Origin: Motilibacter rhizosphaerae
GTDB taxonomy: Bacteria > Actinomycetota > Actinomycetes > Motilibacterales > Motilibacteraceae
NCBI RefSeq assembly: GCF_004216915.1
Contig: NZ_SGXD01000003.1
Span: 814,222-878,221 of the forward strand
Direction: 5' to 3'
DNA length: 64,000 nt
A program made the translations under genes and the position numbers. The notes beneath the pieces were generated by a model. The model was not told the DNA's origin. It did no database searches and saw nothing but the letters and a program-made list of their open reading frames with translations. Below, piece by piece: positions 3,828 to 43,662 of this stretch (its first letter is position 1; each line of letters starts with the position of its first letter).

Positions 3828-3843
3828 CCCCCTCGAGACGCCC

Positions 3844-3973
3844 GTGATCATGCACGACCTGGTTGCTGTGTCCCCGCATCTCGCCCAGGACGTGCATGAT
3901 CACGGGGAGGGGGCGGCGCCCAGGAACTGCATGATCACGGGGAGGGGGCGGCGCCCAGGAACTGCATGATCAC
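3844..3973. repeat. Intergenic repeat cluster A (GTGATCATGCA family, 4 copies)
   Basis: One forward copy of GTGATCATGCA at 3844-3854 faces three inverted copies at 3893-3903, 3928-3938 and 3963-3973. The first pair could form a hairpin with 12-bp arms (GTGATCATGCAC and GTGCATGATCAC) around a 38-nt loop. The last two copies lie in two perfect 35-bp tandem units (3904-3938 and 3939-3973). The cluster fills the gap between the convergent galK and ATPase genes and contains the ATPase stop codon. Confidence 0.9.
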
Positions 3974-6882
3974 GGGGAGAGGTCGAGGTCGGTCAGCGCG
4001 GCGCCGAGGTCCAGCTCCCCCGTGAGCACGGCGGCGACCAGGTGCCGGCGCGCCCACTGCCCGGCGACCCAGCTCGCGCCGTCGGCGAGCCCGGTCGTCG
4101 TCGCGGCGTGCACCCGTCCGTCCACGACCCGCCAGTCGAGCTCGACGCCGCGGACCACCAGCTGCTCGTGCTCGACCCAGGTCGGCGGGGCGGCGGGCAG
4201 CAGGGCGCGTACGGCGTCCGGCGTCGCGCGCTCCACCCCGGCCGAGGGGTCGGGGAGGTCGAGCTCCTCGGAGGCGAGCGGCAGGTCGAGGACGTCGGCG
4301 AGCGCGGGCGCCAGGCCCGGCGGCACCACCAGCACGGGCACGTCCGCGAGCAGCGGCAGCAGGTCGGGTGCGTCGAGCACGACGGCGTCGTCGGCGGCGA
4401 CCACCCGCGTACCCGTCCCGTCGGCGACGCGGACGCGGGCCGGCGGTCCCACCTGCGGCGCGTGCTCGGCGAGCGCGCGCAGCACCTCGGCGAGCTGCGC
4501 CCGGTCGAGCGCACGGGCCGGGTCACCCCACCGGTCGAGCAGGTCGGCGGGGGCGCTCTCGAGCACCTCGTCCAGCGAGGTCCGCACCCCCAGCGCCGCT
4601 GCCAGCGCCGGCTCCACCGGGACGGGCAGCGGGTCCCACAGGGCGCCGAGCACCCCGCCGGCCGTCGCGTAGGACGGGAGCGGGCGGCCGGCGAGCCGCG
4701 CCCGCGCCCGCAGCTCGACCGCGGCGGGCGACGCCACCTCCGCGGTGCCCCCGTCGGCGAGCACGAGGCGTACGCGGTCGAGCACCGCCCGGCGCACGTC
4801 GGGCTCCCCGGCGAGCAGGTCGAGCGCCGCGGGCCACGCGTCGGAGCGCACCGCGTCGAGGTCGCGGACGACCGGCAGCTCGGGCGCGAGGGCGGGGAGC
4901 CCCGGCGGCGCGACCTCCTCGACCCACGGGAGGAGCCAGCCGGGCACCGAGTCCTCGTCGAGCACGACGTCGCGCAGCACCTCGACGACCGGTCCGCGCA
5001 CGACCCCCGCCGCCGCGAGGACGTCGGCGCCCCACCGCTCGACGAGCGCGGGGTCGACCGGGACGAGCACCTCCTCGTCGACGACGGCGGCGAACGCCGT
5101 CCCCGGCAGGCACAGCTCGCCCGCCGGCGTCGGCTCGCCCTCGTCGTCGGGCAGCAGCAGGTCGCGCAGCCACGGCGGCTGCGTCACCGGCGCCGCTGCC
5201 GCGACCAGCGCCAGCACGGCGTCCGCGACCGCGCGGACCTCCGCCTCGTCGTCGGTGTCCTGGGCGGCGAGCACCGCCTCGGCGAGCTCGTCGGACGCGA
5301 GCAGGTCGGCGACGGCCAGGCGGCGGGCGCCCAGCCGCTCGAGCAGGGGGTGGGCCGCGGCCGCGTCGACGACACGCAGCCCCAGCCGGGCGACCGGCTC
5401 AGCAGCGGCGTCGAGCAGCAGGCAGCCCCGCGCGCCGCGGACCACGCGGCCGTCGGCGAGCGGCACCGGCAGGCCCCCGAGCTCCTCGGCCGGGGCGGTC
5501 GCGAGCGCGGAGTAGAGCGCGGGCCAGTCGTGCCGGCCACGGGTGGGCAGCGCGTCGACGGCGTCGGCGAGCGGGAGCACCCGCGCGCCGAGCCGCTCCA
5601 CGAGCGCCGCCCATGGCGCGACGGCGCCGTCCGCCACGCCGTCGAGCAGGTCGCCCAGCAGCGGCAGCGCCGGCGCGGGCGCGTCGACGAGGACGGCGGC
5701 CGTCGGGCGGACCACCCCGCCGGCGGCGAGGGGGACGACGGCGGCGGTGCGCAGCGCGGCGTACGCGGCCTCCCGCACCAGCGCGTCGACCTCCCCGACG
5801 CCGGCCGGCACCGGGAGCAGCGGGAGCGCAGCCCGGGGCTCGGTGGCTGCGAGCCGCTCGAGCAGCGCGGCGTACGCCTCCCCGGCGACCCGCGCCACCG
5901 CGTCGCGCAGCGGACCTGGAGCCGTGCGGCGGCGGGTCGGCTCCAGCGGGAGGTCGGCGACGAGCAGCGCCGGGAGGCCGAGGGGCTCGTCGGTCGGCGT
6001 GGGCGCGAGCACCACCCCGGGGAGCTGGCGGGGAGGCGCGGGCAGCGCCCAGACGACGGCCCGGCGCGTACGCCGCCGCTCCTCCAGCGGGCGGTCGGCC
6101 AGGAGCTCCGGGCCGGCGTCGAGGACGCGGCGCACCAGGGTCCACCGGGTCGCCGCACCGTCCTCGGTGACGAGCAGCCCGCCCTCGACCGGCTCCGACC
6201 GCAGCACGCGCCGGGCGCCGCCGAGCTCGACGACGACCTCGGCCAGCCCGGGCAGGGCGACGAGCAGCTCCTGGCCCAGCGCGGCGAGCTGGGCGCGGAC
6301 GACGTCGGCCGAGAGCAGCGGCAGCTCGACCGCCGTGTCGTAGCCCTCAGGCACCGCGACCTCGGCCGGGTGCGGCAGCCGGAGCACGGGCACGCCCTCC
6401 TCGCCCCGGCGCGCCACCTCCTCGGCCAGGGCGGGCACGCCCGCCGCCAGCGCGTACGCAGTTCCGCGCGACCAGCCCACCCCGCCCGTGGCCCGCGACC
6501 CGATGCGGGGCTCGTCGCTGGCGGGCAGCACGGCGGCGAAGCCGAGCCCGAAGCGGCCGACCGCGTCGTCGTCGCGCTTGGCCGAGGCGCGCAGCGTGCT
6601 GAGGGCGGCGACGCCGGCCGCGTCCAGCGGCGCTCCGGTGTTGGCCGCGACGAGGGTGCCCTGCTCGAGCCGGAGCAGCAGCCGGCAGGGGACGCCCGCG
6701 CGGGACGCGGCGTCGACGGCGTTCTGCGCGAGCTCGACGACCAGCCGGTCGCGGTAGCCGCCGAGGGCGAGCTCCTCCTCGGCGTTGGCGTCCTCGCGGA
6801 AGCGCGCGGGCGAGGCGGCCCACGCGTCCAGCACGGCACCGCGCAGCTGCGCGGTGCCGAAGGGGTCGGCCGGCGGCGTCAG
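3970..6882 (-). CDS. Sacsin/HSP90-like GHKL ATPase domain protein
   Basis: This large protein (970 residues from the CTG at 6882) has an N-terminal HSP90/sacsin-type ATP-binding fold. The Bergerat motifs are visible: 'VELAQNAVDAA' near residue 45 (E/N/D) and 'DAVGRFGLGFAAVLP' near residue 100 (DxVGxFGxGF). The rest is an Ala/Leu/Val-rich region without a recognised catalytic motif. It is usually annotated as a sacsin N-terminal ATPase-like or chaperone-like protein, and its substrate is unknown. The start is uncertain. Homologues begin with a short 'MT..DPFGT' segment, which here would need CTG (6882) overlapping the DUF3027 stop as CTGA. The next conventional start is GTG at 6834, leaving 954 residues. 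The stop TGA lies inside repeat cluster A. Confidence 0.85.
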   Translation of the reverse strand: MTPPADPFGTAQLRGAVLDAWAASPARFREDANAEEELALGGYRDRLVVELAQNAVDAASRAGVPCRLLLRLEQGTLVAANTGAPLDAAGVAALSTLRASAKRDDDAVGRFGLGFAAVLPASDEPRIGSRATGGVGWSRGTAYALAAGVPALAEEVARRGEEGVPVLRLPHPAEVAVPEGYDTAVELPLLSADVVRAQLAALGQELLVALPGLAEVVVELGGARRVLRSEPVEGGLLVTEDGAATRWTLVRRVLDAGPELLADRPLEERRRTRRAVVWALPAPPRQLPGVVLAPTPTDEPLGLPALLVADLPLEPTRRRTAPGPLRDAVARVAGEAYAALLERLAATEPRAALPLLPVPAGVGEVDALVREAAYAALRTAAVVPLAAGGVVRPTAAVLVDAPAPALPLLGDLLDGVADGAVAPWAALVERLGARVLPLADAVDALPTRGRHDWPALYSALATAPAEELGGLPVPLADGRVVRGARGCLLLDAAAEPVARLGLRVVDAAAAHPLLERLGARRLAVADLLASDELAEAVLAAQDTDDEAEVRAVADAVLALVAAAAPVTQPPWLRDLLLPDDEGEPTPAGELCLPGTAFAAVVDEEVLVPVDPALVERWGADVLAAAGVVRGPVVEVLRDVVLDEDSVPGWLLPWVEEVAPPGLPALAPELPVVRDLDAVRSDAWPAALDLLAGEPDVRRAVLDRVRLVLADGGTAEVASPAAVELRARARLAGRPLPSYATAGGVLGALWDPLPVPVEPALAAALGVRTSLDEVLESAPADLLDRWGDPARALDRAQLAEVLRALAEHAPQVGPPARVRVADGTGTRVVAADDAVVLDAPDLLPLLADVPVLVVPPGLAPALADVLDLPLASEELDLPDPSAGVERATPDAVRALLPAAPPTWVEHEQLVVRGVELDWRVVDGRVHAATTTGLADGASWVAGQWARRHLVAAVLTGELDLGAALTDLDLSP

Positions 6883-24277: not shown

Positions 24278-24295
24278 CCCCCGTCCCCCTCCCCC

Positions 24296-24373
24296 GTGAT
24301 CATGCAGATCCCGGGGGCGCCCCTCCCCGTGATCATGCACTTCTTGGAGGCGCCCCCTCCCCGTGATCATGCA
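24296..24373. repeat. Intergenic repeat cluster B (GTGATCATGCA family, 3 copies)
   Basis: Three direct copies of GTGATCATGCA lie at 24296-24306, 24329-24339 and 24363-24373, each followed by a variant of 'GATCCTGGGG' or 'CTTCTTGGAGG' and a C-rich spacer (period 33-34). The cluster separates the convergent XPB and HAD genes. The HAD stop codon lies inside the last copy. Confidence 0.9.
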
Positions 24374-26570: not shown

Positions 26571-26592
26571 GGCGCCCATCCTCCACCTCCCC

Positions 26593-26705
26593 GTGATCAT
26601 GCACTTCCTAGCACCCCAGGACGTGCATGATCACGGCGAAGTGGGGGCGCCCAGGATGTGCATGATCACGGCGACGTGGGGGGCGGCCATGATGTGCATG
26701 ATCAC
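26593..26705. repeat. Intergenic repeat cluster C (GTGATCATGCA family, 4 copies)
   Basis: One forward copy (26593-26603) faces three inverted copies (26624-26634, 26659-26669, 26695-26705) spaced 35-36 bp apart, the same arrangement as cluster A. The first two can form a hairpin with arms GTGATCATGCAC and GTGCATGATCAC. Unlike the other clusters it lies between divergent genes (alpha-glucosidase and bioY). Confidence 0.9.
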
Positions 26706-26735
26706 GAGGGGGACGCACTGGGGCTCGTCTGTCGC

Positions 26736-26751
26736 GTGACAGGCACGAAAC
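26736..26751 (+). promoter_or_regulatory. GlnR-type box (GTGAC-N6-GAAAC) upstream of bioY
   Basis: GTGAC (26736-26740), a 6-nt spacer and GAAAC (26747-26751) match the actinobacterial GlnR a/b half-site pair exactly. The site ends 10 nt before the likely -10 box TAGATT, overlapping the -35 region. An equivalent site precedes the guanidine operon. Confidence 0.6.
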
Positions 26752-26761
26752 ACGGGTGGTC

Positions 26762-26767
26762 TAGATT
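26762..26767 (+). promoter_or_regulatory. -10 box (TAGATT) of bioY
   Basis: TAGATT would direct a start near 26774 and a leader of about 45 nt that contains AGAGGGG before the TTG start. Confidence 0.5.
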
Positions 26768-26818
26768 CCTCCCTGCGCGGAGCGCCGCGACGAAGACCGA
26801 GACGAGAGGGGCCTCCCC

Positions 26819-27403
26819 TTGACGACCAACGCCGTCACCCTGCGCCGGGCCGTGCTGCCGCGCAGCTCCGCAGCCACCGAGGCCGCCCTGGTCGCCGCTG
26901 GCGTGCTGTTCCTCTGGGCCGGCGCCGCGGTGTCCGTGCCGCTGTGGTTCACGCCGGTGCCGCTGACGCTGCAGACGTTCTCGGTGCTCCTGCTCGCCTC
27001 CGCCTTTGGCGCCCGCCTCGGCGTGCTGACGTTCGCGGCGTACTTCGCGGTCGGGCTCGCCGGCGCCCCCATCTTCAGCCAGGGCCACTCCGGGCTCGCC
27101 GTGCTGCACCTGCCGAGCGGCGGCTACCTCGTCGGGATGCTGCTCGCGAGCCTGCTCGTGGGCGCGCTCGCGGACCGCGGCTGGGACAAGGAGGTCGGCC
27201 GCACGGTCGTCGCCATGGTCCTCGGCAACCTCGTCGTCTACGCGTGCGGCGTGCCGTGGCTCGCGGCAGTCGCGCACTTCAGCCTCGGCACCGCGGTCGC
27301 CAAGGGTGCCGTCCCGTTCTTCGTCGGCGACGGCATCAAGATCGCGCTCGCCACGGCCGTGCTGCCGACGACCTGGGCGCTGCTGCGCCGCGCGCGGGGC
27401 TGA
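26819..27403 (+). CDS. bioY: BioY-family biotin transporter S-component
   Basis: The 194-residue membrane protein matches BioY, the substrate-binding subunit of ECF biotin transporters. It has about six helices and signature segments 'PVPLTLQTFSVLLLASAFGA' and 'AYFAVGLAGAPIFS', then 'PSGGYLVGMLLASLLVGALA'. No bioM/bioN energising genes are adjacent, so it either works alone or uses a shared ECF module. The start is TTG 26819 with AGGGG upstream. The GlnR box ahead of it and the biotin-dependent carboxylase operon 5 kb downstream suggest coordinated biotin supply. Neighbouring ligase and ketoacyl-synthase genes recall the Bacillus bioY-yhfT-yhfS operon. Confidence 0.93.
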   Translation: MTTNAVTLRRAVLPRSSAATEAALVAAGVLFLWAGAAVSVPLWFTPVPLTLQTFSVLLLASAFGARLGVLTFAAYFAVGLAGAPIFSQGHSGLAVLHLPSGGYLVGMLLASLLVGALADRGWDKEVGRTVVAMVLGNLVVYACGVPWLAAVAHFSLGTAVAKGAVPFFVGDGIKIALATAVLPTTWALLRRARG

Positions 27404-27411
27404 CCCGCGCG
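27391..27411. terminator. Bidirectional hairpin between bioY and the ketoacyl synthase gene
   Basis: GCGCGGG (27392-27398) pairs with CCCGCGC (27404-27410) across the bioY stop, between two convergent genes. No T-tract is present on either side, as is common in GC-rich genomes. Confidence 0.4.
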
Positions 27412-27412
27412 A

Positions 27413-28480
27413 TCAGGCGGGGCTGAGCACCAGCGCCGCCAGGTAGCCGCCGAACCCGGCGGAGACCGAGACGACCGGACCGGGGGTCCAGGGCCGCGTG
27501 CCCTGGGCCCCCGCCGCGTCGGTGCAGGGGATCTCGGGCGACAGCAGCGCGAGCACCGCCACCGCCGCGTCCAGGGCGCCGGCCGCCGCCATCGTGTGCC
27601 CCGTGCTGCCCTTGGTCGCGACGAGCGGCGGCAACGTGCCGAAGACCTCCTGCAGCGCCGCCAGCTCTGCCGCGTCCCCGGCCACCGTGCCCGTGGCGTG
27701 CGCGTCCACCGCGGCCACGTCGCCCGGCGCCAGCGACGCGTCCTCCAGCGCGCCGCGGACGACACCGGCCAGCCGGCGCGACGGCTCCACGAGGGCCGCC
27801 GGGTCGAAGCCCGCCGCCGACCCCGCCACCCGGGCCAGGGCGGGCGCCGCACCCTCCGGCTCGAGCACGAGCACCGCCGCCCCCTCGCCGAGGACCAGCC
27901 CGTCGCCCGCGAACGGCCGCGCCCGTCCGGACGGGGAGAGCGCGCCGAGCCGGCGCAGCGCCGCGGCGTTCGCGTCGGTCGCCGCTGCCTCGGCGCCGCC
28001 CACGAGCACGAGATCGCAGCGGCCCGACGCGACGAGCTCCGCGCCCAGCGCCACGGCGTCCGTCCCCGCCGCGCACGCCGTGCTCACCGCGCGGCACGGC
28101 CCGAGCGCCGCGACGTCGCGGGCCACCGCCGCAGCCGCCGCCCCGGGCATGAACGCCACCGAGTCCGCCGGCGACACGGACGCGCCCCGGTCCTGCGCGC
28201 GGACGGCGCGCTCCCACGCGTACAGCCCGCCGAGGCCCGCTCCCAGCACCACCCCCGTGCGCTCGGGCACGACCCGGCGGCCGCCCAGCGCCTCCCGGGC
28301 GGCTGCGACCGCCGCACGGGAGACGACGTCCGCGGACGAGCCGAGCCGCGGGAGGAGCGCGGGGTCGAGCCGGACGACGGGGCCGTCGGCCACCGCGAGC
28401 GCCCCGGCGAGCAGGGTCGGGGCGCCAATCCCGAGCGCGCTGACCGCGCCCACGCCCGTGACGACGACCGGCCTGCGCAT
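27413..28480 (-). CDS. Beta-ketoacyl-ACP synthase-like protein (KAS II fold)
   Basis: The 355-residue thiolase-fold protein has a complete Cys-His-His triad: 'VSTACAAGT' with Cys136, 'DAHATGTVAGD' as the first His, and 'TKGSTGHTMAAAGALDA' as the second His with the conserved Lys. It is about 55 residues shorter than FabF, so it may be a specialised condensing enzyme rather than the housekeeping one. It is convergent with bioY and divergent from the hydrolase and ligase genes. Together these look like an acyl-activation and condensation set beside a biotin transporter, but no biotin-synthesis role is proven. Confidence 0.88.
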   Translation of the reverse strand: MRRPVVVTGVGAVSALGIGAPTLLAGALAVADGPVVRLDPALLPRLGSSADVVSRAAVAAAREALGGRRVVPERTGVVLGAGLGGLYAWERAVRAQDRGASVSPADSVAFMPGAAAAAVARDVAALGPCRAVSTACAAGTDAVALGAELVASGRCDLVLVGGAEAAATDANAAALRRLGALSPSGRARPFAGDGLVLGEGAAVLVLEPEGAAPALARVAGSAAGFDPAALVEPSRRLAGVVRGALEDASLAPGDVAAVDAHATGTVAGDAAELAALQEVFGTLPPLVATKGSTGHTMAAAGALDAAVAVLALLSPEIPCTDAAGAQGTRPWTPGPVVSVSAGFGGYLAALVLSPA

Positions 28481-28506
28481 GCCGGTCAGGCTAGGCGCCC
28501 AGCGGC

Positions 28507-28512
28507 TAGCGT
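28507..28512 (+). promoter_or_regulatory. -10 box (TAGCGT) for leaderless hydrolase gene
   Basis: TAGCGT ends 6 nt before GTG 28519, giving an RNA that would begin at the initiation codon. Confidence 0.55.
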
Positions 28513-28518
28513 GAGCGC

Positions 28519-29274
28519 GTGCTGCCCCGCCGTACGCTCCTGCGCGCCGCCGCGGCCGCCCCGCTCACCGCGGTCCTCGGCTGCGGGCACGCGGAGGCGG
28601 CAGGGCCGGTCCTGCGGACGACGCGGCACTCCGCGGCCCGCGGCCGCACGGTCGACCTCGTCGTGGTCCGGCCGGCGGGGCCGCGCACGCCGCTCCCCGT
28701 CGTGCTCGCGCTGCACGGGCGCGGCGCGAGCCCGCGGACGTTCCTGGACCTCGGGCTCCAGCGGGCGGTCGACGCCACCGGCACGTACGCCGTGGCCGCC
28801 GTCTCGGGCGGCGACGCGTACTGGCACCGGAGGGGCGACGACGACCCGCAGGCGATGCTCGAGCACGAGGTGCCGGGCTGGCTGGCGGAGCTCGGCCTGG
28901 GGCCCGTCCGCGGTGCGCTCGGCATCTCCATGGGCGGCTTCGGCGCGCTGCTGTGGGCCCGTCGGACCGCGCACCCCGTCGCCGTGCTCAGCCCGGCGCT
29001 CTTCCTCGACTGGGGGCAGGCGCGGGCCAGGCACGCCTTCAGCTCCCAGGCCGACTGGGAGGCGGCCGAGCCGCTGCGCCACCTGCCCGCACTCCACGGG
29101 CACGGCCTGGGTGTCTGGTGCGGCGCCCAGGACCCCTTCGCCCCCGCCGCGCGCCGCCTGGCGCACGGGACGCACGCGGCCGTCGCCTCCTTCGGCCCGG
29201 GCGCCCACGACGCGGCCTTCTGGGGTGCCGAGCTGCCGACGGCCGCCCGCTTCCTCGCGAGCCGCGTCGCGTGA
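28519..29274 (+). CDS. Exported alpha/beta-hydrolase (esterase-like)
   Basis: The 251-residue protein starts with a twin-arginine-like signal ('LPRRTLLRAAAAAPLTAVLG') and a Cys that might be lipidated. The fold is an esterase-D-like alpha/beta hydrolase. It has an oxyanion region 'LALHGRGAS', the nucleophile elbow 'LGISMGGFGALL' (Ser near 138), a late 'GAQDPFAP' with the acid, and 'FGPGAHDAAFW' with the His. The substrate is an unknown ester. The gene is coupled to the downstream AMP-forming ligase by a GTGA overlap, so the two probably act on the same acyl group. Confidence 0.82.
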   Translation: MLPRRTLLRAAAAAPLTAVLGCGHAEAAGPVLRTTRHSAARGRTVDLVVVRPAGPRTPLPVVLALHGRGASPRTFLDLGLQRAVDATGTYAVAAVSGGDAYWHRRGDDDPQAMLEHEVPGWLAELGLGPVRGALGISMGGFGALLWARRTAHPVAVLSPALFLDWGQARARHAFSSQADWEAAEPLRHLPALHGHGLGVWCGAQDPFAPAARRLAHGTHAAVASFGPGAHDAAFWGAELPTAARFLASRVA

Positions 29275-30512
29275 GCCTGCTGGAGGCGGTGCGCGACGCC
29301 TGCACGACGTACGCGCCGGAGCCCGCCGTCCGCGAGCTCGCCTCGGGCCGCGTCGTGACCTACGCCGAGCTGGGTCGGCTGCTCGACGGGGCGGACGCGC
29401 AGCCGGGGCTGCACGTGGAGACCAGCGGCGAGGACGTCGACACCCTCGTCCGGCTCCTCGCGCGTTCGGGGGCGGGCGGCAGCACGCTGCTGCTCAACCC
29501 GGCCGCGGGACCAGCGGTGCACGCCGCGCTCCGCGCCGCCGCCCGCGGGTGGGTGCCCCGCGACGACGTCCACCTCGTGCCGACGAGCGGGTCGAGCGGG
29601 ACGCCACGCCTGGTCCGCCTGACGCAGCAGGGCATCCTCGCGGCCACGCAGGTCTACCTCGACCGCGTCCCGCTCGAGCCGGGCTGGACCACGGCGTGCC
29701 CGATGTCGTTCGCCTCGGTCGGCGCACTGCCCTCGGCGGTGCTGCCCGCCCTGCTCACCGGCGGCACGGCGCTGCTCTGCGCGGGTGCCACGCCCCGGGC
29801 CTTCGCCGATGCGCTGGTCAGGCACGACGTGCGGTTCGCCACGAGCTACGCCGCCTGGTGGGAGACGTGCCTGTCCCTGCCCGGCTTCTCGGCTCCCCTG
29901 CACACCCTGGCGGTCGGCGGCGCGCCGTGGCAGCACCTGCTCCCGCGGATCCGCACGGCGCTGCCGGCGGCGCGGGCGCTCGGCATCTACGGGCTGACGG
30001 AGACGCACGGGCCGGGCGTGCACGGGTTCGGCGACGAGCCTGCGGTCGCCGCGGGCGCCAGCGGTCGTCCCGCCCGCGGGCTCGAGGTGGAGCTGCGCGA
30101 CGGCGAGGTCTGGCTGCGGGGCGGGCTCGTGGCTCCCGGCTACGTCGGTGGGGGGATGCGCCGCGACGCCGACGGCTGGCTCGGCACCGGAGACGAGGGC
30201 GAGCTGGATGCCGAGGGCAGGCTGACCGTGCTCGGGCGCCGCGACGACGTGCTCAACCTCGGCGGCCGCAAGGTCCACCCGCTGCAGGTCGAGTCCGTTC
30301 TGGCCGCGCACCCGGGCGTCGTGCGCTGCGCGGTGGTGCGGCGGGGCGACGCGCTCGCCGCGTACGTCATCGGCAGCGCGCGCCCGGACGAGCTGCGCGC
30401 CTGGGTGCGCGAGCAGGTCGCGGCCTACGCCGCGCCGCGCGAGGTCCACCTCGTCGACGCCCTGCCGCTGCTGGCCAACGGGAAGGTCGACCGCGGCGCC
30501 CTACGCGGCTGA
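29271..30512 (+). CDS. Short class I adenylate-forming (acyl-CoA/ACP ligase-like) enzyme
   Basis: The 413-residue ANL-superfamily protein is shorter than the usual 500-550, with a reduced N-terminal half. It keeps the phosphate loop 'LVPTSGSSGTPRLVRLT', the 'YGLTETHG' motif, the 'GDEGELDAEG' hinge region with 'RRDDVLNLGGRKVHP', and the C-terminal catalytic Lys in 'LLANGKVDRG'. It should activate a carboxylic acid as the acyl-AMP and transfer it to CoA or a carrier. It is analogous in position to YhfT near BioY in Bacillus. Its 3' end overlaps the convergent TetR gene by 12 nt. Confidence 0.87.
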   Translation: MSLLEAVRDACTTYAPEPAVRELASGRVVTYAELGRLLDGADAQPGLHVETSGEDVDTLVRLLARSGAGGSTLLLNPAAGPAVHAALRAAARGWVPRDDVHLVPTSGSSGTPRLVRLTQQGILAATQVYLDRVPLEPGWTTACPMSFASVGALPSAVLPALLTGGTALLCAGATPRAFADALVRHDVRFATSYAAWWETCLSLPGFSAPLHTLAVGGAPWQHLLPRIRTALPAARALGIYGLTETHGPGVHGFGDEPAVAAGASGRPARGLEVELRDGEVWLRGGLVAPGYVGGGMRRDADGWLGTGDEGELDAEGRLTVLGRRDDVLNLGGRKVHPLQVESVLAAHPGVVRCAVVRRGDALAAYVIGSARPDELRAWVREQVAAYAAPREVHLVDALPLLANGKVDRGALRG

Positions 30513-31070
30513 GCCGCGCAGCATCCGCAGCGCCGCGTCGGCGACGGCCTGCTGCAGCCCCTCGACCGGCGGGAGCTCCGGCACGTCGCGGCGCAGCGCG
30601 ATGATCCCCTCCACCAGCCCGAGCACGAGGTCGGCGGTGACCTCCGGCACCCCGTCCCCGAGCGCGCGGCGGGCCAGCGAGGCGTACGCCTCGCGCAGCT
30701 GCGCCCGCTCCTCCATGAACGGCGCGAACGGCTCGCCGCCGACGTCCGGCAGCGAGTAGAGGATGCCGACGTTGCCGCGCGAGCGCAGCAGCAGCCCCAC
30801 GTCGAAGCTGACGAGCGCGTGGAGGGCCTCGGGGGCGGGCACGCCCCGCGCGGCGAGGTCGGCGCAGAAGTCCAGCGACGGGCGCACCGTCGAGCGGAGC
30901 AGCTCGACGAGGATCGTCTCCTTGCTCGGGAAGTGGTAGTACAACGAGGCCTGGCGGATGCCCACAGCGTCCGCGATCGCCCTGGTGGGGGTCGCGGCGT
31001 ACCCGCGCTCGGCGAACAGGCGAGCCGCCACGTCGAGGATGAGCTCCCGCGTGGACGACGAGGTCGGCAT
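30501..31070 (-). CDS. TetR-family regulator, divergent from guanidine operon
   Basis: The 189-residue regulator has the TetR helix-turn-helix at residues about 8-55 ('TREL', then 'AERGYAATPTRAIADAVGIR' and 'ASLYYHFPSKETIL'). The rest is a variable ligand-binding domain. ATG 31070 is chosen because it puts the DNA-binding domain at the N-terminus; an upstream in-frame start at 31136 would add 22 unlikely residues. The divergent operon and the palindrome at 31202-31217 make it the likely local repressor of guanidine/urea catabolism. The inducer is unknown. Confidence 0.9.
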   Translation of the reverse strand: MPTSSSTRELILDVAARLFAERGYAATPTRAIADAVGIRQASLYYHFPSKETILVELLRSTVRPSLDFCADLAARGVPAPEALHALVSFDVGLLLRSRGNVGILYSLPDVGGEPFAPFMEERAQLREAYASLARRALGDGVPEVTADLVLGLVEGIIALRRDVPELPPVEGLQQAVADAALRMLRGSAA

Positions 31071-31161
31071 GCCGCGATCGTTCCACAACCGCGTCTGCGG
31101 CAGGCGCTTTCGCGCACAGGACCCTGGCCGAAACACTCGACGCCCATTCGCTTACGCGAAC

Positions 31162-31177
31162 GTTACAGAGCGGAAAC
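31162..31177 (+). promoter_or_regulatory. GlnR-type box (GTTAC-N6-GAAAC) upstream of the guanidine operon
   Basis: GTTAC (31162-31166), a 6-nt spacer and GAAAC (31173-31177) fit the GlnR consensus exactly. It lies between the TetR gene and the operon. A weaker CTTAC sits one 11-nt period upstream at 31151-31155. GlnR would couple this nitrogen pathway to nitrogen limitation. Confidence 0.65.
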
Positions 31178-31201
31178 CACGGCACCACAGCAGAAGGGGA
31201 G

Positions 31202-31217
31202 CCTGTCATGTGACAGG
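31202..31217. promoter_or_regulatory. Perfect palindrome CCTGTCA-TG-TGACAGG (TetR operator candidate)
   Basis: The 7-bp arms match perfectly around TG, about 25 nt before the leader ORF. The size and position suit a TetR dimer site. The related sequence CTGTC-GCG-TGACAG occurs at 26729-26742 upstream of bioY. Confidence 0.55.
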
Positions 31218-31242
31218 TTCTCCTTCCCTGAAAGGGATCGCC

Positions 31243-31317
31243 ATGGCCCTCGACGCCCCCGCGACCCGCCCCGGCAGCGTGGCACCGGCCCCGCGGACGA
31301 CCGGCACCGGCGCATGA
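31243..31317 (+). CDS. Leader ORF of 24 codons, coupled to the first DUF1989 gene
   Basis: ATG 31243, preceded by AAAGGGA, opens a 24-residue Ala/Pro/Thr-rich peptide ('MALDAPATRPGSVAP' and so on). Its TGA overlaps the ATG of the next gene as ATGA. The clean ribosome site and the overlap argue for translation and coupling. I do not recognise the peptide, and it has no run of a regulatory amino acid. It could simply load ribosomes for the downstream gene. Confidence 0.5.
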   Translation: MALDAPATRPGSVAPAPRTTGTGA

Positions 31318-32144
31318 GCACCGCCACCACGGCGGGTGCCCGCGCCCACGCCCGGTCCATGGCCGGCACCGTCGTCGAGGCGATGCCCGTGCTGCCTGCC
31401 ACGGCTGCGGCACCGCCGGCGGGCGTGGATGCCATCGACCTCGTCCGCGCCGAGACCGTGGCGGGCGGGGGCTACACCTCGCTCACCGTGGCGAGGGGCA
31501 CCACGCTGCGCCTCGAGGACCTCACCGGCGACGCCTGCGCGCACGTCGTCCTGCTGAACGCGGCCGGCCCCCACGAGCGGCTGAACATCGCCGACACCGT
31601 GAAGGTCCTCTGGCAGGCCTACGTCACGACCGGGCACCTGCTCCTGTCCGACCAGGGCCGCGTGCTGGCCTCCGTCGTCACCGACACCTCGGGCCGCCAC
31701 GACACGTTCTGCGGCACCTCGACGAAGGCGCGCAACGAGCAGCGCTACGGCGACGGAACGGCCTTCGGACCGACACCCGCCGGGCGCGAGCTCCTCACGC
31801 TGGCGGCGGCGAAGCACGGCCTGAGCAAGCGCGACCTCCCGCCCAGCATGGCATTCTTCCAGGGCGTCCGCGTCGACAGCGCGACGGGGACGTTCGCGTG
31901 GCTCGGCTCCGCCGGCCGGGGTGCGGTCGTCGAGCTGCGCGCGGAGATGGACCTGCACGTGCTGCTCGCGAACGTGCCGCACCCGCTCGACCCGCGCGCG
32001 ACGTACGAGACCGGCCCGCTGCGCCTGCACGCCTGGCGCGGCGAGCCGACGCGGCCGGGCGACGAGCTGTGGGGGCTGACCCCGGAGGGCGAGCGCGCCT
32101 TCCTCAACACGCAGGACTACCTGGCAGCACGGGGGATCTCATGA
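31314..32144 (+). CDS. DUF1989 urea-carboxylase-associated protein 1 (probable carboxyguanidine deiminase subunit)
   Basis: The 276-residue protein matches UAAP1/DUF1989: 'GYTSLTVARGTTLRLEDLTG', 'RLNIADTVKVLWQAYVTTGH', 'SVVTDTSGRHDTFCGTS' and 'HGLSKRDLPPSMAFF'. Family knowledge is that paired DUF1989 proteins encoded beside such carboxylases form carboxyguanidine deiminase, which converts carboxyguanidine to allophanate and ammonia. The first 40 residues are low-complexity and the true start could be later, for example ATG 31359. ATGA overlaps couple it to the leader peptide upstream and to its partner downstream. Confidence 0.88.
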   Translation: MSTATTAGARAHARSMAGTVVEAMPVLPATAAAPPAGVDAIDLVRAETVAGGGYTSLTVARGTTLRLEDLTGDACAHVVLLNAAGPHERLNIADTVKVLWQAYVTTGHLLLSDQGRVLASVVTDTSGRHDTFCGTSTKARNEQRYGDGTAFGPTPAGRELLTLAAAKHGLSKRDLPPSMAFFQGVRVDSATGTFAWLGSAGRGAVVELRAEMDLHVLLANVPHPLDPRATYETGPLRLHAWRGEPTRPGDELWGLTPEGERAFLNTQDYLAARGIS

Positions 32145-32788
32145 CCACGACGACCACCGCACTCGCCCTCGTCGCCGGCGACGTCGTCCTCGACGAGACG
32201 GTCCCGGCCCGCGCGCCGTGGTCGGCCGTCGTCCGCGCCGGGCACGTGCTCACCATCGTCGACCTCGGCGGCAACCAGGCCGTGGACTGCCTGTTCTACG
32301 ACGCGCACGACACCGCCGAGCGCTACAGCGCGCAGGACACGATCGCCGCGCAGGGCGGCATCTTCCTCACCACCGGCAGCGTCCTGCTCAGCAACGAGGG
32401 CGCTCCGCTCGTCACCGTGGTCGCCGACGAGGTCGGACGCCACGACACCGTCGGCGGCGCGTGCAGCAAGGAGTCCAACACCCTGCGCTACGGCCACCAC
32501 ACGCAGCACCAGCACGCCTGCGTCGAGAACTTCCTGCTGGAGGGCGCGAAGTGGGGCCTCGGCAAGCGCGACCTCGTGAGCAACGTCAACTGGTACATGA
32601 ACGTCCCCGTCGACCCCGACGGCAGCCTCGGCATCGTCGACGGCATTTCGGCCCCCGGGCTGCGCATCGCGCTGCGCGCCGAGCGCGACGTCCTCGTCCT
32701 CGTGTCGAACTGCCCGCAGATCAACAACCCCTGCAACGGGTTCGACCCCACGCCGGTGCGCATGGTCGTCACCGCACCGTCGAGCTGA
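32141..32788 (+). CDS. DUF1989 urea-carboxylase-associated protein 2 (probable carboxyguanidine deiminase subunit)
   Basis: The 215-residue protein is the second DUF1989 partner (UAAP2). It contains 'LGGNQAVDCLFYDAHDTAER', 'EVGRHDTVGGACSKESNTLR', 'HHTQHQHACVENFLLEGAKW' and 'VSNCPQINNPCNGF', with several conserved Cys and His that may bind a metal. It begins at an ATG overlapping the previous stop. With its partner it is expected to form the heteromeric deiminase of the guanidine pathway. If the carboxylase instead prefers urea, the deiminase would be redundant, and that is a reason to favour guanidine. Confidence 0.9.
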   Translation: MTTTTTALALVAGDVVLDETVPARAPWSAVVRAGHVLTIVDLGGNQAVDCLFYDAHDTAERYSAQDTIAAQGGIFLTTGSVLLSNEGAPLVTVVADEVGRHDTVGGACSKESNTLRYGHHTQHQHACVENFLLEGAKWGLGKRDLVSNVNWYMNVPVDPDGSLGIVDGISAPGLRIALRAERDVLVLVSNCPQINNPCNGFDPTPVRMVVTAPSS

Positions 32789-32798
32789 AGGACCGGTC

Positions 32799-35700
32799 AT
32801 GACCTTCGACACGCTGCTCGTCGCCAACCGCGGCGAGATCGCCTGCCGCATCCAGCGGACCGCGAAGCGGCTCGGCCTCAAGACGGTCGCCGTCTTCTCC
32901 GACCCCGACCGCTCCGCGCCGCACGTGCGCATGGCGGACGTGGCCGTACGCCTCGGCCCCGCGCCGTCGCGCGAGTCCTACCTGCGCACGGACGCGATCC
33001 TCGACGCGGCGCTGGCCAACGGCGTCGGCGCGATCCACCCGGGCTACGGCTTCCTGTCCGAGGACGCGTCCTTCGCAAGGGTGGTCGAGGCCGCGGGCAT
33101 CGTGTTCGTCGGCCCGACACCCGAGCAGCTCGAGGCGTTCGGGGCGAAGCACACGGCCCGCGCCCTCGCCGCTGCAGCAGGCGTGCCGATGATCGAGGGC
33201 ACCGACCTCCTTCCCGACGTGGCTGCCGCGCTCGAGGCCGCCGGCACCATCGGCTACCCCGTGATGCTGAAGGCGACCGGCGGTGGTGGTGGCATCGGCA
33301 TGCAGGTCTGCCGCGACGCCGCGGAGCTCGCCGACGCGTACGCGCGGGTGGAGCGGATGGCGGCGGCGAGCTTCGCCAGCAGCGGGGTCTTCCTCGAGCG
33401 GTTCGTCGAGCGGGCGCGCCACGTCGAGGTCCAGGTGCTCGGCGACGGGCTCGGCGGCGTCGTCGTCCTGGGTGACCGCGACTGCAGCCTGCAGCGGCGC
33501 AACCAGAAGGTCCTCGAGGAGGCGCCGGCACCGAACCTGCCCGACGCCGTGCGCCAGGCCCTCCACGGCTCCGCTGCGGCGCTCGCCGCGTCCGTGCGAT
33601 ACCGCTCCGCCGGCACGGTCGAGTTCGTCTACGACGCCGAGCGCGAGGTCGCGTCCTTCCTCGAGGTCAACGCCCGCCTGCAGGTCGAGCACCCCGTCAC
33701 CGAGGAGGTGTTCGGAGTCGACCTGGTCGAGAAGATGCTGCGGCTGGCCCAGGGTGAGACCGGTGTCGTGCAGGAACCCCTGCAGCAGAGCGGGTTCGCC
33801 GTCGAGGCGCGGGTCTACGCGGAGGACCCGACACGCGGCCACCAGCCGAGCGCCGGCCTGGTCACGAACGTCAGCTTCCCCGACGACGTCCGCGTGGACG
33901 GGTGGGTGGAGGCCGGCACCGAGGTCACCACGGCGTACGACCCGATGCTCGCGAAGGTCATCGCGACCGGCAGCACCCGCGAGGAGGCGTTCGCCCGGCT
34001 GCGCGAGGCGCTCGTCGCCACGCGCGTGGACGGCATCGAGACCAACCTGGGGCTGCTGCGCGCGTCGCTGGCGGACGAGGACGTGCTGGCAGCACGGCAC
34101 TCCACCTCGACGCTCGGCGGCATCGACGACGCCGAGCCGCGGATCGTCGTGGAGCGGGCCGGGACGCAGACGGCCGTGCAGGACTGGCCGGGGCGCGCGG
34201 GCCTGTGGGAGGTCGGCGTCCCGCCCAGCGGGCCGATGGACGACCTGTCCTTCCGCCTCGGCAACCGCGCCCTCGGCAACCCCGAGGGCGCACCCGGCCT
34301 CGAGTGCGCCGTCGACGGGCCGGCCCTGCGGTTCACCTCCGGCACCACGGTGTGCATCACCGGCGCCCCGGTCACGGTGACGGTGGACGGCGTGCTGGTC
34401 CCGCAGTGGGAGCCGGTCGACGTCCCCGCCGGCGCGACGCTCGACGTCGGGCGCGCGGACGGGCCCGGCCTGCGCGTCTACGTGCTGGTCGCCGGCGGCC
34501 TCGACGTCCCGGCCTACCTCGGCAGTGCCAGCACCTTCACCCTCGGCCAGTTCGGCGGACACGGCGGGCGGAACCTCCGGCTCGGGGACGTCCTGCGGGC
34601 GGCAGCAGCGCCCTCGAGCACCCGAGAGCCGGTGACCGCGCCGACGCTCACCCACGCGTGGGAGATCGGCGTCGTCGAGGGCCCGCACGCGGCGCCGACC
34701 TTCTTCACCGACGAGGACATCGCGACGTTCTACGCGACCTCCTTCGAGGTCCACTTCAACTCGGCGCGCACCGGCGTCCGCCTCGTCGGCCCGAAGCCCC
34801 AGTGGGCGCGCACGGACGGCGGCGAGGCGGGCCTGCACCCGTCGAACATCCATGACACGCCGTACTCCGTCGGCGCCGTCGACTTCACCGGCGACACCCC
34901 CATCCTGCTCGGCCCGGACGGCCCGAGCCTCGGCGGCTTCGTCTGCCCGGCGACGGTCGTCACCGGCGAGCGCTGGAAGCTCGGCCAGCTGCGACCGGGC
35001 GACACGGTGCGCTTCGTGCCGGTCGCCGAGCAGGAGGCCCGGCGGCTGCGCGCCTCCCCCGCCACCTCCCTGCACCGCACGGAGATCGCCGACCAGGGCG
35101 TGATCGGGGCGCGCGAGGAGTCGGCCGCCGGTCCGAGCGTGACCTACCGCCGCTCCGGCGACGACAACCTGCTCGTCGAGTACGGCCCCATGGCGCTCGA
35201 CCTCGGCCTCCGCATGCGCGTCCACGCGCTGATGGACCGGCTGCGTAGCGAGGGTGCCGCGGGGATCGTCGACCTGACGCCGGGGATCCGCTCCCTGCAG
35301 GTGAAGCTCGACCCGGACCGGCTGTCCGTGCGTGACGCCCTGGCGCTCGTCCGCGGCCTCGAGGACGAGCTCCCCGCGACCTCCGAGCTCGTGGTCCCGA
35401 GCCGCACGGTGCACCTGCCGCTGTCCTGGGACGACCCCGCGACGCGCGAGGCGATCCAGCGCTACATGGCGGGCGTGCGCGACGACGCCCCCTGGTGCCC
35501 CTGGAACATCGAGTTCATCCGCCGGGTCAACGGACTCGACAGCGTCGACGACGTCTACCGCACGGTCTTCGACGCGAGCTACCTGGTGCTCGGCCTGGGC
35601 GACGTCTACCTCGGCGCGCCGGTCGCGACCCCGCTCGACCCGCGGCACCGGCTGGTGACGACGAAGTACAACCCAGCCCGCACGTGGACCCCGGAGAACG

Positions 35701-36353
35701 CCGTCGGCATCGGCGGCGCCTACCTCTGCATCTACGGCATGGAGGGACCGGGCGGCTACCAGTTCGTCGGCCGCACGACGCAGGTCTGGTCGCGCTTCCG
35801 CCAGGGCGGCGGCTTCGAGGCGGGGTCTCCCTGGCTGCTGCGGCACTTCGACCGCATCTCGTGGTACCCCGTCAGCGCCGAGGAGCTGCTCGACCTGCGG
35901 GCCGACACCGCGGCCGGCCGGCACGACGTGCGCATCGACGACGGCTCCTTCGCCCTCGCGGACTACGAGGCCTTCCTCGCCGACAACGCGGGCAGCATCG
36001 CGGAGTTCCGGGCACAGCAGGCGGAGGCGTTCGGCGCGGAGCGCGACGCATGGGCCGCGGCGGGCGAGTTCGACCCGCGGCCCGAGCCCCCGGCACCACC
36101 TGCGGCAGGCGAGGTCTCCGTCCCGGCAGGTGGTTCGCTCGTGGAGGCGCCCTTCACGAGCAGCGTCTGGCGCGTCGACGTCCGCCCCGGTGACCGGGTA
36201 CGCGCCGGTTCGCCGCTCCTGGCCCTCGAGGCGATGAAGCTCGAGACCGTCGTCCCCGCCCCGCACGACGCCGAGGTCGTCGACGTGCTCGTCACCCCCG
36301 GCACCCAGGTCACCCCTGGCGCGCCCCTCGTCGTCCTCGGGAGCCCCTCGTGA
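32799..36353 (+). CDS. Biotin-dependent guanidine/urea carboxylase
   Basis: The 1184-residue multidomain enzyme has three parts. Residues 1-450 are biotin carboxylase: 'LVANRGEIACRI', an ATP-grasp 'MLKATGGGGGIGMQV', 'RHVEVQVLGDG', and 'EVNARLQVEHPVTEEVFGVD'. Residues about 455-1080 form the carboxyltransferase of KipA/KipI-like halves ('PGRAGLWEVGVPPSGPMDDL', 'WNIEFIRRVNGLDS'). The biotin carrier is at the end, with 'LLALEAMKLETVV' and the lysine to be biotinylated in MKL. The layout matches urea amidolyase without its hydrolase. The two DUF1989 genes upstream favour guanidine as substrate; sequence reading alone cannot settle it. GAAGGA precedes the ATG. Confidence 0.93.
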   Translation: MTFDTLLVANRGEIACRIQRTAKRLGLKTVAVFSDPDRSAPHVRMADVAVRLGPAPSRESYLRTDAILDAALANGVGAIHPGYGFLSEDASFARVVEAAGIVFVGPTPEQLEAFGAKHTARALAAAAGVPMIEGTDLLPDVAAALEAAGTIGYPVMLKATGGGGGIGMQVCRDAAELADAYARVERMAAASFASSGVFLERFVERARHVEVQVLGDGLGGVVVLGDRDCSLQRRNQKVLEEAPAPNLPDAVRQALHGSAAALAASVRYRSAGTVEFVYDAEREVASFLEVNARLQVEHPVTEEVFGVDLVEKMLRLAQGETGVVQEPLQQSGFAVEARVYAEDPTRGHQPSAGLVTNVSFPDDVRVDGWVEAGTEVTTAYDPMLAKVIATGSTREEAFARLREALVATRVDGIETNLGLLRASLADEDVLAARHSTSTLGGIDDAEPRIVVERAGTQTAVQDWPGRAGLWEVGVPPSGPMDDLSFRLGNRALGNPEGAPGLECAVDGPALRFTSGTTVCITGAPVTVTVDGVLVPQWEPVDVPAGATLDVGRADGPGLRVYVLVAGGLDVPAYLGSASTFTLGQFGGHGGRNLRLGDVLRAAAAPSSTREPVTAPTLTHAWEIGVVEGPHAAPTFFTDEDIATFYATSFEVHFNSARTGVRLVGPKPQWARTDGGEAGLHPSNIHDTPYSVGAVDFTGDTPILLGPDGPSLGGFVCPATVVTGERWKLGQLRPGDTVRFVPVAEQEARRLRASPATSLHRTEIADQGVIGAREESAAGPSVTYRRSGDDNLLVEYGPMALDLGLRMRVHALMDRLRSEGAAGIVDLTPGIRSLQVKLDPDRLSVRDALALVRGLEDELPATSELVVPSRTVHLPLSWDDPATREAIQRYMAGVRDDAPWCPWNIEFIRRVNGLDSVDDVYRTVFDASYLVLGLGDVYLGAPVATPLDPRHRLVTTKYNPARTWTPENAVGIGGAYLCIYGMEGPGGYQFVGRTTQVWSRFRQGGGFEAGSPWLLRHFDRISWYPVSAEELLDLRADTAAGRHDVRIDDGSFALADYEAFLADNAGSIAEFRAQQAEAFGAERDAWAAAGEFDPRPEPPAPPAAGEVSVPAGGSLVEAPFTSSVWRVDVRPGDRVRAGSPLLALEAMKLETVVPAPHDAEVVDVLVTPGTQVTPGAPLVVLGSPS

Positions 36354-38023
36354 GCACGGTCGACCTCGTCCAGCGCGTCCGCGACGCGTACGCCGCCAAC
36401 ACCGCCGCCGACCGGCCGGAGGCCTGGATCACGTTGCGGGCCGAGGACGACGTCGTGCGGGACGCGGAGGCGCTGCAGGCGCGGGTCGCCGCCGGTGAGG
36501 TGCTGCCGCTCGCCGGGAAGCTGCTGGCCGTCAAGGACAACCTCGACGTCGCCGGTCTGCCCACGACCGCCGGCTGCCCCGCCTTCGCGTACGTGCCGGA
36601 GCGCAGCGCCACCGCCGTCCAGCGCCTCGTCGACGCCGGCGCCCTCGTGCTCGGCAAGACCAACCTCGACCAGTTCGCGACCGGGCTGGTCGGCACCCGC
36701 AGCCCGTACGGCGCGGTGCGCGACCTGCGCGATCCCGAGCGCATCTCCGGCGGCTCGAGCTCGGGCTCCGCGGTCGTCGTCGCCGCGGGTGTGGCGGATC
36801 TCGCGCTCGGCACGGACACCGCGGGCTCCGGCCGGGTTCCTGCTGCCTTCCAGGGCATCGTCGGGCTGAAGCCGACCGTCGGCACGGTCCCGAGCGAGGG
36901 GCTCGTGCCCGCCTGCCGCAGCTTCGACTGCATCACCGTCTTCGCGCGCACCCTCGACGAGGGCCGCGACGCGCTGCGGGTCATGGCCGACCCGGTCCGC
37001 GCCGACGCCCCGCGCGCCGCACCGCCGGCGCCGGTCGTCCTCGTCCCCCCGCGTGAGGAGCTGCTGCACCTCAGCGAGTCCTGGCGCGACGCGTTCGAGG
37101 CGGCGGCGAAGACCCTCGAGGCAGCAGGCGCTGTGCTGCGTCCGGTGCACCTCGCTCCGTTCCTCGCCGCGGCGAAGCTGCTCTACGAGGGGGCTTTCGT
37201 CGCGGAGCGCTACGCCGCGGTGGGCGAGTTCGTGGACGCGCATCCCGGCGAGGTGGACCCGGTCGTCGCCGGGATCATCGGCTCCGCCAGGGACATCCGG
37301 GCCGCGGACTACGTGCGGGACCAGGAGCGCCTCGAGCAGCTCCGGGCCGAGGCGATGCTGGAGTGGGGCGACGCCGACGCCCTGCTCATCCCCACCACGA
37401 CGGACCACCCGACGATCGCCGAGGTCCGTGCCGCGCCGGTGGCGGTGAACTCCCGGCTGGGCACGTACACCAACTCCTGCAACCTGCTCGACCTCTCGGC
37501 CGTCGCCGTGCCCGCCGGTGAGGCCGACGGCCGGCCCTTCGGGGTCACGGTCGTCGCCCGGGCCCACGCGGACGCGGTCGCGGCGGACGTCGCCGCGCTG
37601 CTCGGGGGCGCGCCGCTCGCCGACGAGCCGAGCGGGCTGCCGCTCGTCGTCTTCGGGGCCCACCTGCGCGGGCTGCCGCTCAACGGGCAGCTCACCTCCG
37701 TCGGCAGCCGCTTCGTCCGTGAGGTGCGGACGACCGCCGACTACCGCCTGCACGCCCTGGCGACGACGCCTGAGAAGCCGGGCCTCGTCCGCGTCGGCGA
37801 GGGCGGGGCGAGCATCGCCGGCGAGCTCTGGGACGTGCCCCCCGCGGAGCTCGGGCCGTTCCTCGCGGCGCTGCCGCGCCCGATGGTCCTCGGCACCGTC
37901 ACGCTCGACGACGGCAGTGCGCTGACCGGCTTCCTCTGCGAGGCGAGCGCGACGGAGGGCGCGCCCGACATCACGGCCACCGGCTCGTGGCGCGCCTACC
38001 AGGCGAGCCGCTCGCCCGCCTGA
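36350..38023 (+). CDS. atzF: Allophanate hydrolase
   Basis: The 557-residue amidase-signature enzyme splits allophanate to ammonium and CO2. The Ser-cisSer-Lys triad is visible: Lys62 in 'LLAVKDNLDV', cis-Ser136 in 'ISGGSSSGSAV', and nucleophile Ser160 in 'GTDTAGSGRVPAAFQG'. The C-terminal domain of about 120 residues ('LVVFGAHLRGLPLNGQL' onward) is the AtzF extension. The GTG start overlaps the carboxylase stop by 4 nt. It is the last gene of the operon, and its 3' end overlaps the convergent DUF1684 gene by 28 nt. No transporter gene accompanies the pathway. Confidence 0.95.
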   Translation: MSTVDLVQRVRDAYAANTAADRPEAWITLRAEDDVVRDAEALQARVAAGEVLPLAGKLLAVKDNLDVAGLPTTAGCPAFAYVPERSATAVQRLVDAGALVLGKTNLDQFATGLVGTRSPYGAVRDLRDPERISGGSSSGSAVVVAAGVADLALGTDTAGSGRVPAAFQGIVGLKPTVGTVPSEGLVPACRSFDCITVFARTLDEGRDALRVMADPVRADAPRAAPPAPVVLVPPREELLHLSESWRDAFEAAAKTLEAAGAVLRPVHLAPFLAAAKLLYEGAFVAERYAAVGEFVDAHPGEVDPVVAGIIGSARDIRAADYVRDQERLEQLRAEAMLEWGDADALLIPTTTDHPTIAEVRAAPVAVNSRLGTYTNSCNLLDLSAVAVPAGEADGRPFGVTVVARAHADAVAADVAALLGGAPLADEPSGLPLVVFGAHLRGLPLNGQLTSVGSRFVREVRTTADYRLHALATTPEKPGLVRVGEGGASIAGELWDVPPAELGPFLAALPRPMVLGTVTLDDGSALTGFLCEASATEGAPDITATGSWRAYQASRSPA

Positions 38024-42814: not shown

Positions 42815-43510
42815 GTGCCCACCCTGCTCCCCGACTACCTCGTCACCGCGCGGTCGCTGCGCGAGTACGCCGCCATGCTCGGCCTCGACCCGGCCGCCCT
42901 CGCCGGGCGCGACGTGCTCGACTGCCCGGGCGGCGCGGCCAGCTTCGCCGCGGAGGCCGCGGCTCTCGGCGCTCGCGTCACCGCCGCCGACCCGGTCTAC
43001 GCGCTGCCCGCGGGGGAGGTCGCCGTCCGCGCCCTGGACGACACCGCCGCCGGCGCCCGCGGCATCGCCGCCCACGCCGAGCGCTACGCGTGGACGACCT
43101 TCGCGGGACCCGAGGAGCACGCGGCCGAGCGGACCGCGGCCGCCGCGCGCTTCGCCTGGGACCTGCGGGTCTCGCCCGAGCGCTACGTCGCGGCCGCGCT
43201 GCCGGACCTGCCGTTCAGCGACGGCTCGTTCGACCTGGTGCTGAGCTCGCACCTGCTCTTCACCTACGCCGACCGGCTCGACCCGGCCTTCCACGTCGCC
43301 GCCGCACGGGAGCTGGTCCGGGTCTGCCGCCCGGGCGGCGAGGTGCGGGTCTTCCCGCTCGTGCCGCACGACCCCGCGGCGTACGCGCCGGTGGCCGAGG
43401 TCCGCGCCGCCCTCGAGGCCGACGGCTGCGTGACCGCGGTGCTGCCCGTGGCGTACCGGCTCCAGCGGGGCGCGTACAGCGCGCTGGTGATCACCCCGCC
43501 CCCGCGGTGA
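42815..43510 (+). CDS. Class I SAM-dependent methyltransferase
   Basis: The 231-residue protein has a Rossmann methyltransferase pattern: motif I 'VLDCPGGAASFAAEAAALGA', the acidic end of beta2 'VTAADPVYALP', and 'LPFSDGSFDLVLSSHLLFTY' as motif IV. 'ARELVRVCRPGGEVRVFPL' is the later post-motif region. The substrate is unknown. A strong AAGGAGG lies ahead of GTG 42815. The TGA stop is part of the first repeat of cluster D, and the ending 'VITPPPR' is partly repeat-derived. A short upstream ORF precedes it. Confidence 0.87.
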   Translation: MPTLLPDYLVTARSLREYAAMLGLDPAALAGRDVLDCPGGAASFAAEAAALGARVTAADPVYALPAGEVAVRALDDTAAGARGIAAHAERYAWTTFAGPEEHAAERTAAAARFAWDLRVSPERYVAAALPDLPFSDGSFDLVLSSHLLFTYADRLDPAFHVAAARELVRVCRPGGEVRVFPLVPHDPAAYAPVAEVRAALEADGCVTAVLPVAYRLQRGAYSALVITPPPR

Positions 43511-43662
43511 TCACGCAGATCCCGGGCCCCCTCCCCCCGTCGCCCCCCCCGTGATCATGCACATCCTGGGGCGCCAACCCCGCGGTGATCATGCGAATCC
43601 TGGGCCCCCCTCCCTGGTGATCATGCAGATCGTGGAGACCCCCCTCCCCCGGTGATCATGCA
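43507..43662. repeat. Intergenic repeat cluster D (GTGATCATGCA family, 5 copies)
   Basis: Five direct copies lie at 43507-43517 (GTGATCACGCA), 43551-43561, 43585-43595 (ends GCG), 43617-43627 and 43652-43662. Each is followed by a GATC/CATC/GTCCTGGG-like tail and a C-rich spacer of about 20 nt. The cluster starts inside the methyltransferase stop and fills much of the 432-bp gap before groEL on the opposite strand. Nothing else is seen in that gap apart from the palindrome at 43787-43810 and a terminator. Confidence 0.9.

Follow-up and report, generated by a model that had tools for sequence, protein, structure and literature searches.

Why do the gene of a biotin importer and an operon for a biotin-dependent enzyme of nitrogen metabolism carry the same kind of candidate regulatory box? 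This question is raised by a stretch of 64,000 nucleotides from Motilibacter rhizosphaerae, called the window here. A sequence-only reading of the window had found GlnR-type boxes before bioY and before a guanidine/urea carboxylase operon, and had suggested that nitrogen limitation may raise biotin import together with the biotin enzyme. We analysed the sites, the genes and their counterparts in other genomes.

The probable guanidine carboxylase operon and its neighbours

The genes concerned are as follows.

26762 to 26767, plus strand: candidate -10 element TAGATT of bioY, a weak guess read from the sequence only
26819 to 27403, plus strand: bioY, S component of a biotin importer, TTG start (Pfam BioY, 128 bits)
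30501 to 31070, minus strand: amtR, TetR-family nitrogen repressor (TetR_N domain; the closest solved chains are AmtR, 5e57, E 1.1e-37)
31240 to 31317, plus strand: leader ORF of 25 amino acids between the AmtR operator and UAAP1, with an ATGA overlap with the UAAP1 start; it may or may not be translated
31314 to 32144, plus strand: UAAP1 (DUF1989), probable carboxyguanidine deiminase subunit (TIGR03425 over cut-off)
32141 to 32788, plus strand: UAAP2 (DUF1989), probable carboxyguanidine deiminase subunit (TIGR03424 over cut-off)
32799 to 36353, plus strand: biotin-dependent urea/guanidine carboxylase (TIGR02712, Biotin_lipoyl domain, Asp695)
36350 to 38023, plus strand: allophanate hydrolase (TIGR02713 over cut-off)

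The Biotin_lipoyl domain and the TIGR02712 match support the earlier claim that the carboxylase needs biotin. Asp695 of this enzyme aligns with an Asn of yeast urea amidolyase, in the column that we take to be the deciding Asp/Asn position. Guanidine enzymes have Asp and urea enzymes have Asn (PMC12186494, a review). Together with UAAP1 and UAAP2 in the operon, Asp695 suggests that the carboxylase is probably of the guanidine type rather than the urea type. No guanidine riboswitch was found before the operon in the window at Rfam gathering thresholds; the sole Rfam match there is a SAM riboswitch (RF00162, 56221-56353, minus strand, 87.5 bits). A consensus scan of the bioY and operon promoters found no sigma-70 consensus promoter. 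Unlike some AmtR loci elsewhere, the operon (31314-38023) has no permease gene seen beside it. The interval between bioY and amtR (27413-30512) contains genes for a beta-ketoacyl synthase (minus strand), a putative esterase (plus strand) and an AMP-binding ligase (plus strand).

GlnR-type boxes at the two promoters

The GlnR-type sites are the following.

26736 to 26751, plus strand: GlnR box GTGAC-N6-GAAAC before bioY
31162 to 31177, plus strand: GlnR box GTTAC-N6-GAAAC before the guanidine operon
31151 to 31155 and 31184 to 31188: extra half-sites CTTAC and ACCAC of the operon, which flank its GlnR box in an 11-bp register

Both boxes that the sequence-only reading had described were confirmed in the window at these positions as exact matches to the pattern; they read GTGACaggcacGAAAC before bioY and GTTACagagcgGAAAC before the operon. 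They are the only two matches to GTNAC-N6-GAAAC in the window, where shuffled sequences lead one to expect 0.06. Across the 4.3-Mb genome the pattern occurs ten times, these two included, and the reversed pattern once. Other exact boxes in the genome precede glnA, amtB, nirD and the gene for a type III glutamine synthetase, and three more lie at loci L010, L013 and L014. We also scored both boxes with a position weight matrix, as had been proposed beforehand. The matrix was built from 11 boxes, all outside the window, and was run on the window and on retrieved loci; its source boxes were exact-pattern matches, so it largely repeats the consensus. In the window the bioY box came first, with 20.2 bits, and the operon box second, with 18.1 bits; the highest score in 20 Markov controls was 17.0 bits. 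Both boxes match the Streptomyces GlnR box gTnAc-n6-GaAAc exactly, and the bioY box also fits the M. smegmatis form Gn2AC-n6-GnAACA, final A included (PMC10704036, PMC3662644).

The two promoters differ in the number of half-sites. bioY has a single GlnR box, while glnA and the operon have more half-sites: the operon carries the series CTTAC, GTTAC, GAAAC and ACCAC in an 11-bp register, and the glnA promoter has a complete a-b-a-b array. Between the end of the box and the start codon there are 55-74 nt at the nitrogen genes, 67 nt at bioY and 62 nt at the operon (counted to the leader ORF). Thus, the spacing at bioY is typical for GlnR targets of this genome. A GlnR gene is present; its protein shares 62% identity with a mycobacterial GlnR query, and its best match among solved structures is 8hih. 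The nitrogen link that had been suggested for the operon and bioY is supported.

The shared palindrome as a predicted AmtR operator

The same reading had noted a motif CTGTC-NNN-TGACAG in both promoters. The motif and its positions, 26729-26742 and 31203-31216, were borne out, and CTGTC-N4-GACAG, a palindrome, describes it better. The regulator had been overlooked, since amtR, which is divergent from the operon, was absent from that reading; the proposed link of the two promoters through GlnR thus becomes one through GlnR plus AmtR.

26729 to 26742: predicted AmtR operator core CTGTC-GCGT-GACAG before bioY, an exact palindrome; 22-bp matrix match at 26725-26746
31203 to 31216: predicted AmtR operator core CTGTC-ATGT-GACAG of the operon, in a 22-bp palindrome at 31199-31220; same position in orthologous loci

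The recognition segment of the AmtR protein (iadavgirqaslyyhfpsk) is identical to that of C. glutamicum AmtR, so the DNA-contact residues Gln53, Ser55, Tyr57, Tyr58 and His59 (residues according to PMC2723105) are all conserved. AmtR orthologues were found in 44 of the 394 genomes of the class, M. rhizosphaerae counted. In most of the orthologous loci that we read, CTGTC-N4-GACAG or a close variant lies near amtR, often in the promoter facing UAAP1. The longer form TTTCTGTCN4GACAGAAA, with up to two mismatches, occurs zero to three times per AmtR genome, in most cases close to amtR, and the reversed form used as a control hardly ever occurs. Several other genomes have a GlnR box before UAAP1 as well, 30-54 bp upstream of the AmtR operator. 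Hence, the boxes of the operon do recur elsewhere, the AmtR operator across families and the GlnR box in several genomes. At two loci read closely (L217 and L219) the box/operator pair stands before a separate gene for an amino acid permease, and bioY in M. rhizosphaerae appears to take the place of the permease as second target of the pair. In some genomes of one family (f4) a match to GTCAC-N6-GAAAC falls within the AmtR operator; for this reason a GlnR match inside an operator was not taken as separate evidence.

An AmtR matrix was made from 30 operators of other genomes (TTTCTGTCN4GACAGAAA type) and run on the window and the retrieved loci. The operon operator had the top score in the window (18.0 bits) and the bioY operator the second (14.0 bits), and the next best site reached 6.5 bits; among 20 Markov controls, one scored 18.7 by chance. 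The bioY operator, the flanks of which are non-palindromic, is 4 bits below that of the operon. Because the palindrome is associated with amtR loci and its two copies rank first and second with a matrix from outside, we conclude that CTGTC-N4-GACAG is a predicted AmtR operator. CTGTCNNGTGACAG without mismatch is found at just two places in the genome, the bioY and operon promoters. A further CTGTC-N4-GACAG at positions 1501-1514 of locus L129 (G000:C1:943012-943025), outside the ORFs listed there, scored 9.7 with the AmtR matrix and is possibly a weak third AmtR site.

The arrangement of the two kinds of site differs between the promoters. In the operon promoter the GlnR box and the AmtR operator are 25 bp apart. 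In the bioY promoter they overlap by 7 bp (26736-26742), so the two motifs are not independent there.

bioY, biotin supply and alternative explanations

bioB was not found in the M. rhizosphaerae genome over the family cut-off, and it is present in 37 of the 42 other AmtR genomes. This suggests that the cell is probably unable to make biotin and needs to import it. Import of biotin for the biotin enzyme makes sense in a genome that lacks bioB. If the cell depends on BioY, tight repression would be unaffordable, and any control would have to be partial, with basal expression remaining. Upstream of bioY there is also a cluster of short repeats (26591-26707), which ends about 20 bp before the bioY operator. 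Similar clusters lie at 3842-3975, 24294-24373 and 43505-43662; the repeats share the core TGCATGATCACGG, occur in both orientations and are mostly spaced by about 35 bp. If two mismatches at most are allowed, there are 17 matches, where 0.6 would be expected, and the repeat is possibly a REP-like or terminator-like element.

Is bioY a real target? One alternative is that GlnR and AmtR act on the operon alone, and that the sites at bioY are a chance resemblance, bioY being regulated otherwise or not at all. We regard this as unlikely, and it is the most serious of the alternatives. It is consistent with the comparison of bioY genes, which covered 53 loci besides that of the window (a few genomes appear twice, most loci were scored, and the gene start is uncertain in a few). 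Neither a GlnR box nor an AmtR operator was found at any other bioY promoter scored, in relatives or in AmtR genomes, and the boxes looked for at bioY in relatives were thus not recovered. This is a weak test. AmtR (E<=1e-25) and a full-length carboxylase match are absent from the one genome of the same genus and from the other family members compared; a same-genus genome that has neither AmtR nor the operon is not a fair test. The surroundings of bioY in the genus mate and in two family members showed no common gene order either; beyond bioY itself, these gave weak hits to other window genes only. Chance resemblance is also favoured by the nine occurrences of the looser CTGTC-N4-GACAG in the genome, some of them within apparent ORFs, and by the fact that the palindrome itself provides the GTGAC half of the bioY GlnR box. 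Against it, bioY has the best GlnR score and the second-best AmtR score in the window, and the distance from its box to the start codon is that of the genome's GlnR targets. Moreover, in a simple composition model that assumes independence, a promoter with both sites within 100 bp would arise by chance anywhere in the genome with a probability below 1e-4, well under 1e-3, a figure that the overlap weakens and makes too optimistic.

It is also conceivable that GlnR alone acts on both promoters, with the palindrome either belonging to the GlnR site or recognized by no regulator. GlnR boxes are indeed present at both promoters and the two motifs overlap at bioY, but the palindrome is found with amtR in different families, in many cases with no GlnR box, and at the operon it lies apart from the GlnR box with amtR adjoining. 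For the former reason the palindrome was ruled out as part of a GlnR site, and action of GlnR alone is very improbable. Even less probable is that the TetR-type protein is a biotin-responsive, BioQ-like regulator linking bioY and the biotin enzyme through biotin rather than nitrogen: both targets concern biotin, but the protein resembles AmtR most closely, the motif of BioQ is a different one, and across families the palindrome occurs with amtR and with either the guanidine operon or a permease rather than with bioY.

A predicted GlnR/AmtR regulon and known systems

We therefore return to joint control by GlnR and AmtR, and consider it likely that the guanidine carboxylase operon and bioY form a small GlnR/AmtR regulon with two promoters. 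The genomes show directly the sites and genes, the link of the operator to amtR and the operon across families, the presence of GlnR and the absence of bioB. From these we infer binding, the direction of its effect, an AmtR effector, the transcription starts and any response of bioY. When nitrogen is ample, an AmtR dimer from the divergent gene would bind CTGTC-N4-GACAG at both promoters and repress them. Under nitrogen limitation AmtR would leave, and GlnR would bind its own boxes and activate. At the operon, the block by AmtR would come from downstream of the GlnR half-sites. At bioY, binding of GlnR and of AmtR would probably be mutually exclusive because the sites share 7 bp. Since biotin synthase is missing and the carboxylase bears biotin, the importer and the biotin enzyme would then rise together under nitrogen limitation.

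For bioY this is a plausible and new prediction, drawn from a single genome, and bioY as a second target with overlapping sites appears to be new; no description of GlnR control of an actinobacterial bioY was found in the literature searched. The usual view is that a cofactor controls its own supply. If the model is true, biotin import would follow the nutrient state in which a biotin-dependent enzyme is needed, and bioY would join the GlnR/AmtR targets. It would also suggest looking in other auxotrophs for a vitamin importer under the regulators of the enzyme that needs this vitamin. In the wider sense, we lean slightly towards the view that a biotin auxotroph has adapted to growth on guanidine by placing its vitamin importer under the nitrogen activator and repressor of the vitamin-dependent enzyme, with overlapping sites at bioY for which the two regulators compete.

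Dual control of the operon itself would be expected, as known biology in a new host. In M. smegmatis, the permease/urea carboxylase operon msmeg_2184-2189 is activated by GlnR and repressed by AmtR (PMC4222082, PMC3662644), and competition between AmtR and GlnR has been proposed for urea metabolism, as the title of Petridis et al. 2016 indicates (given in PMC5137332). The operon of M. rhizosphaerae is homologous, with AmtR as predicted repressor and GlnR as predicted activator, and the overlap at bioY suggests a similar competition. M. smegmatis showed no AmtR target beyond this operon, and urea and amino acids left its AmtR binding unaffected (PMC4222082), whereas M. rhizosphaerae apparently has bioY as a second target and no permease gene beside the operon. 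In C. glutamicum, AmtR is a master regulator of at least 35 genes, is released by GlnK and recognizes the box tttCTATN6AtAGat/aA (PMC2723105). The half-site spacing of this box equals that of CTGTC-N4-GACAG, and the recognition segment is shared. Compared with the at least 35 genes there, AmtR of M. rhizosphaerae has two strong predicted sites.
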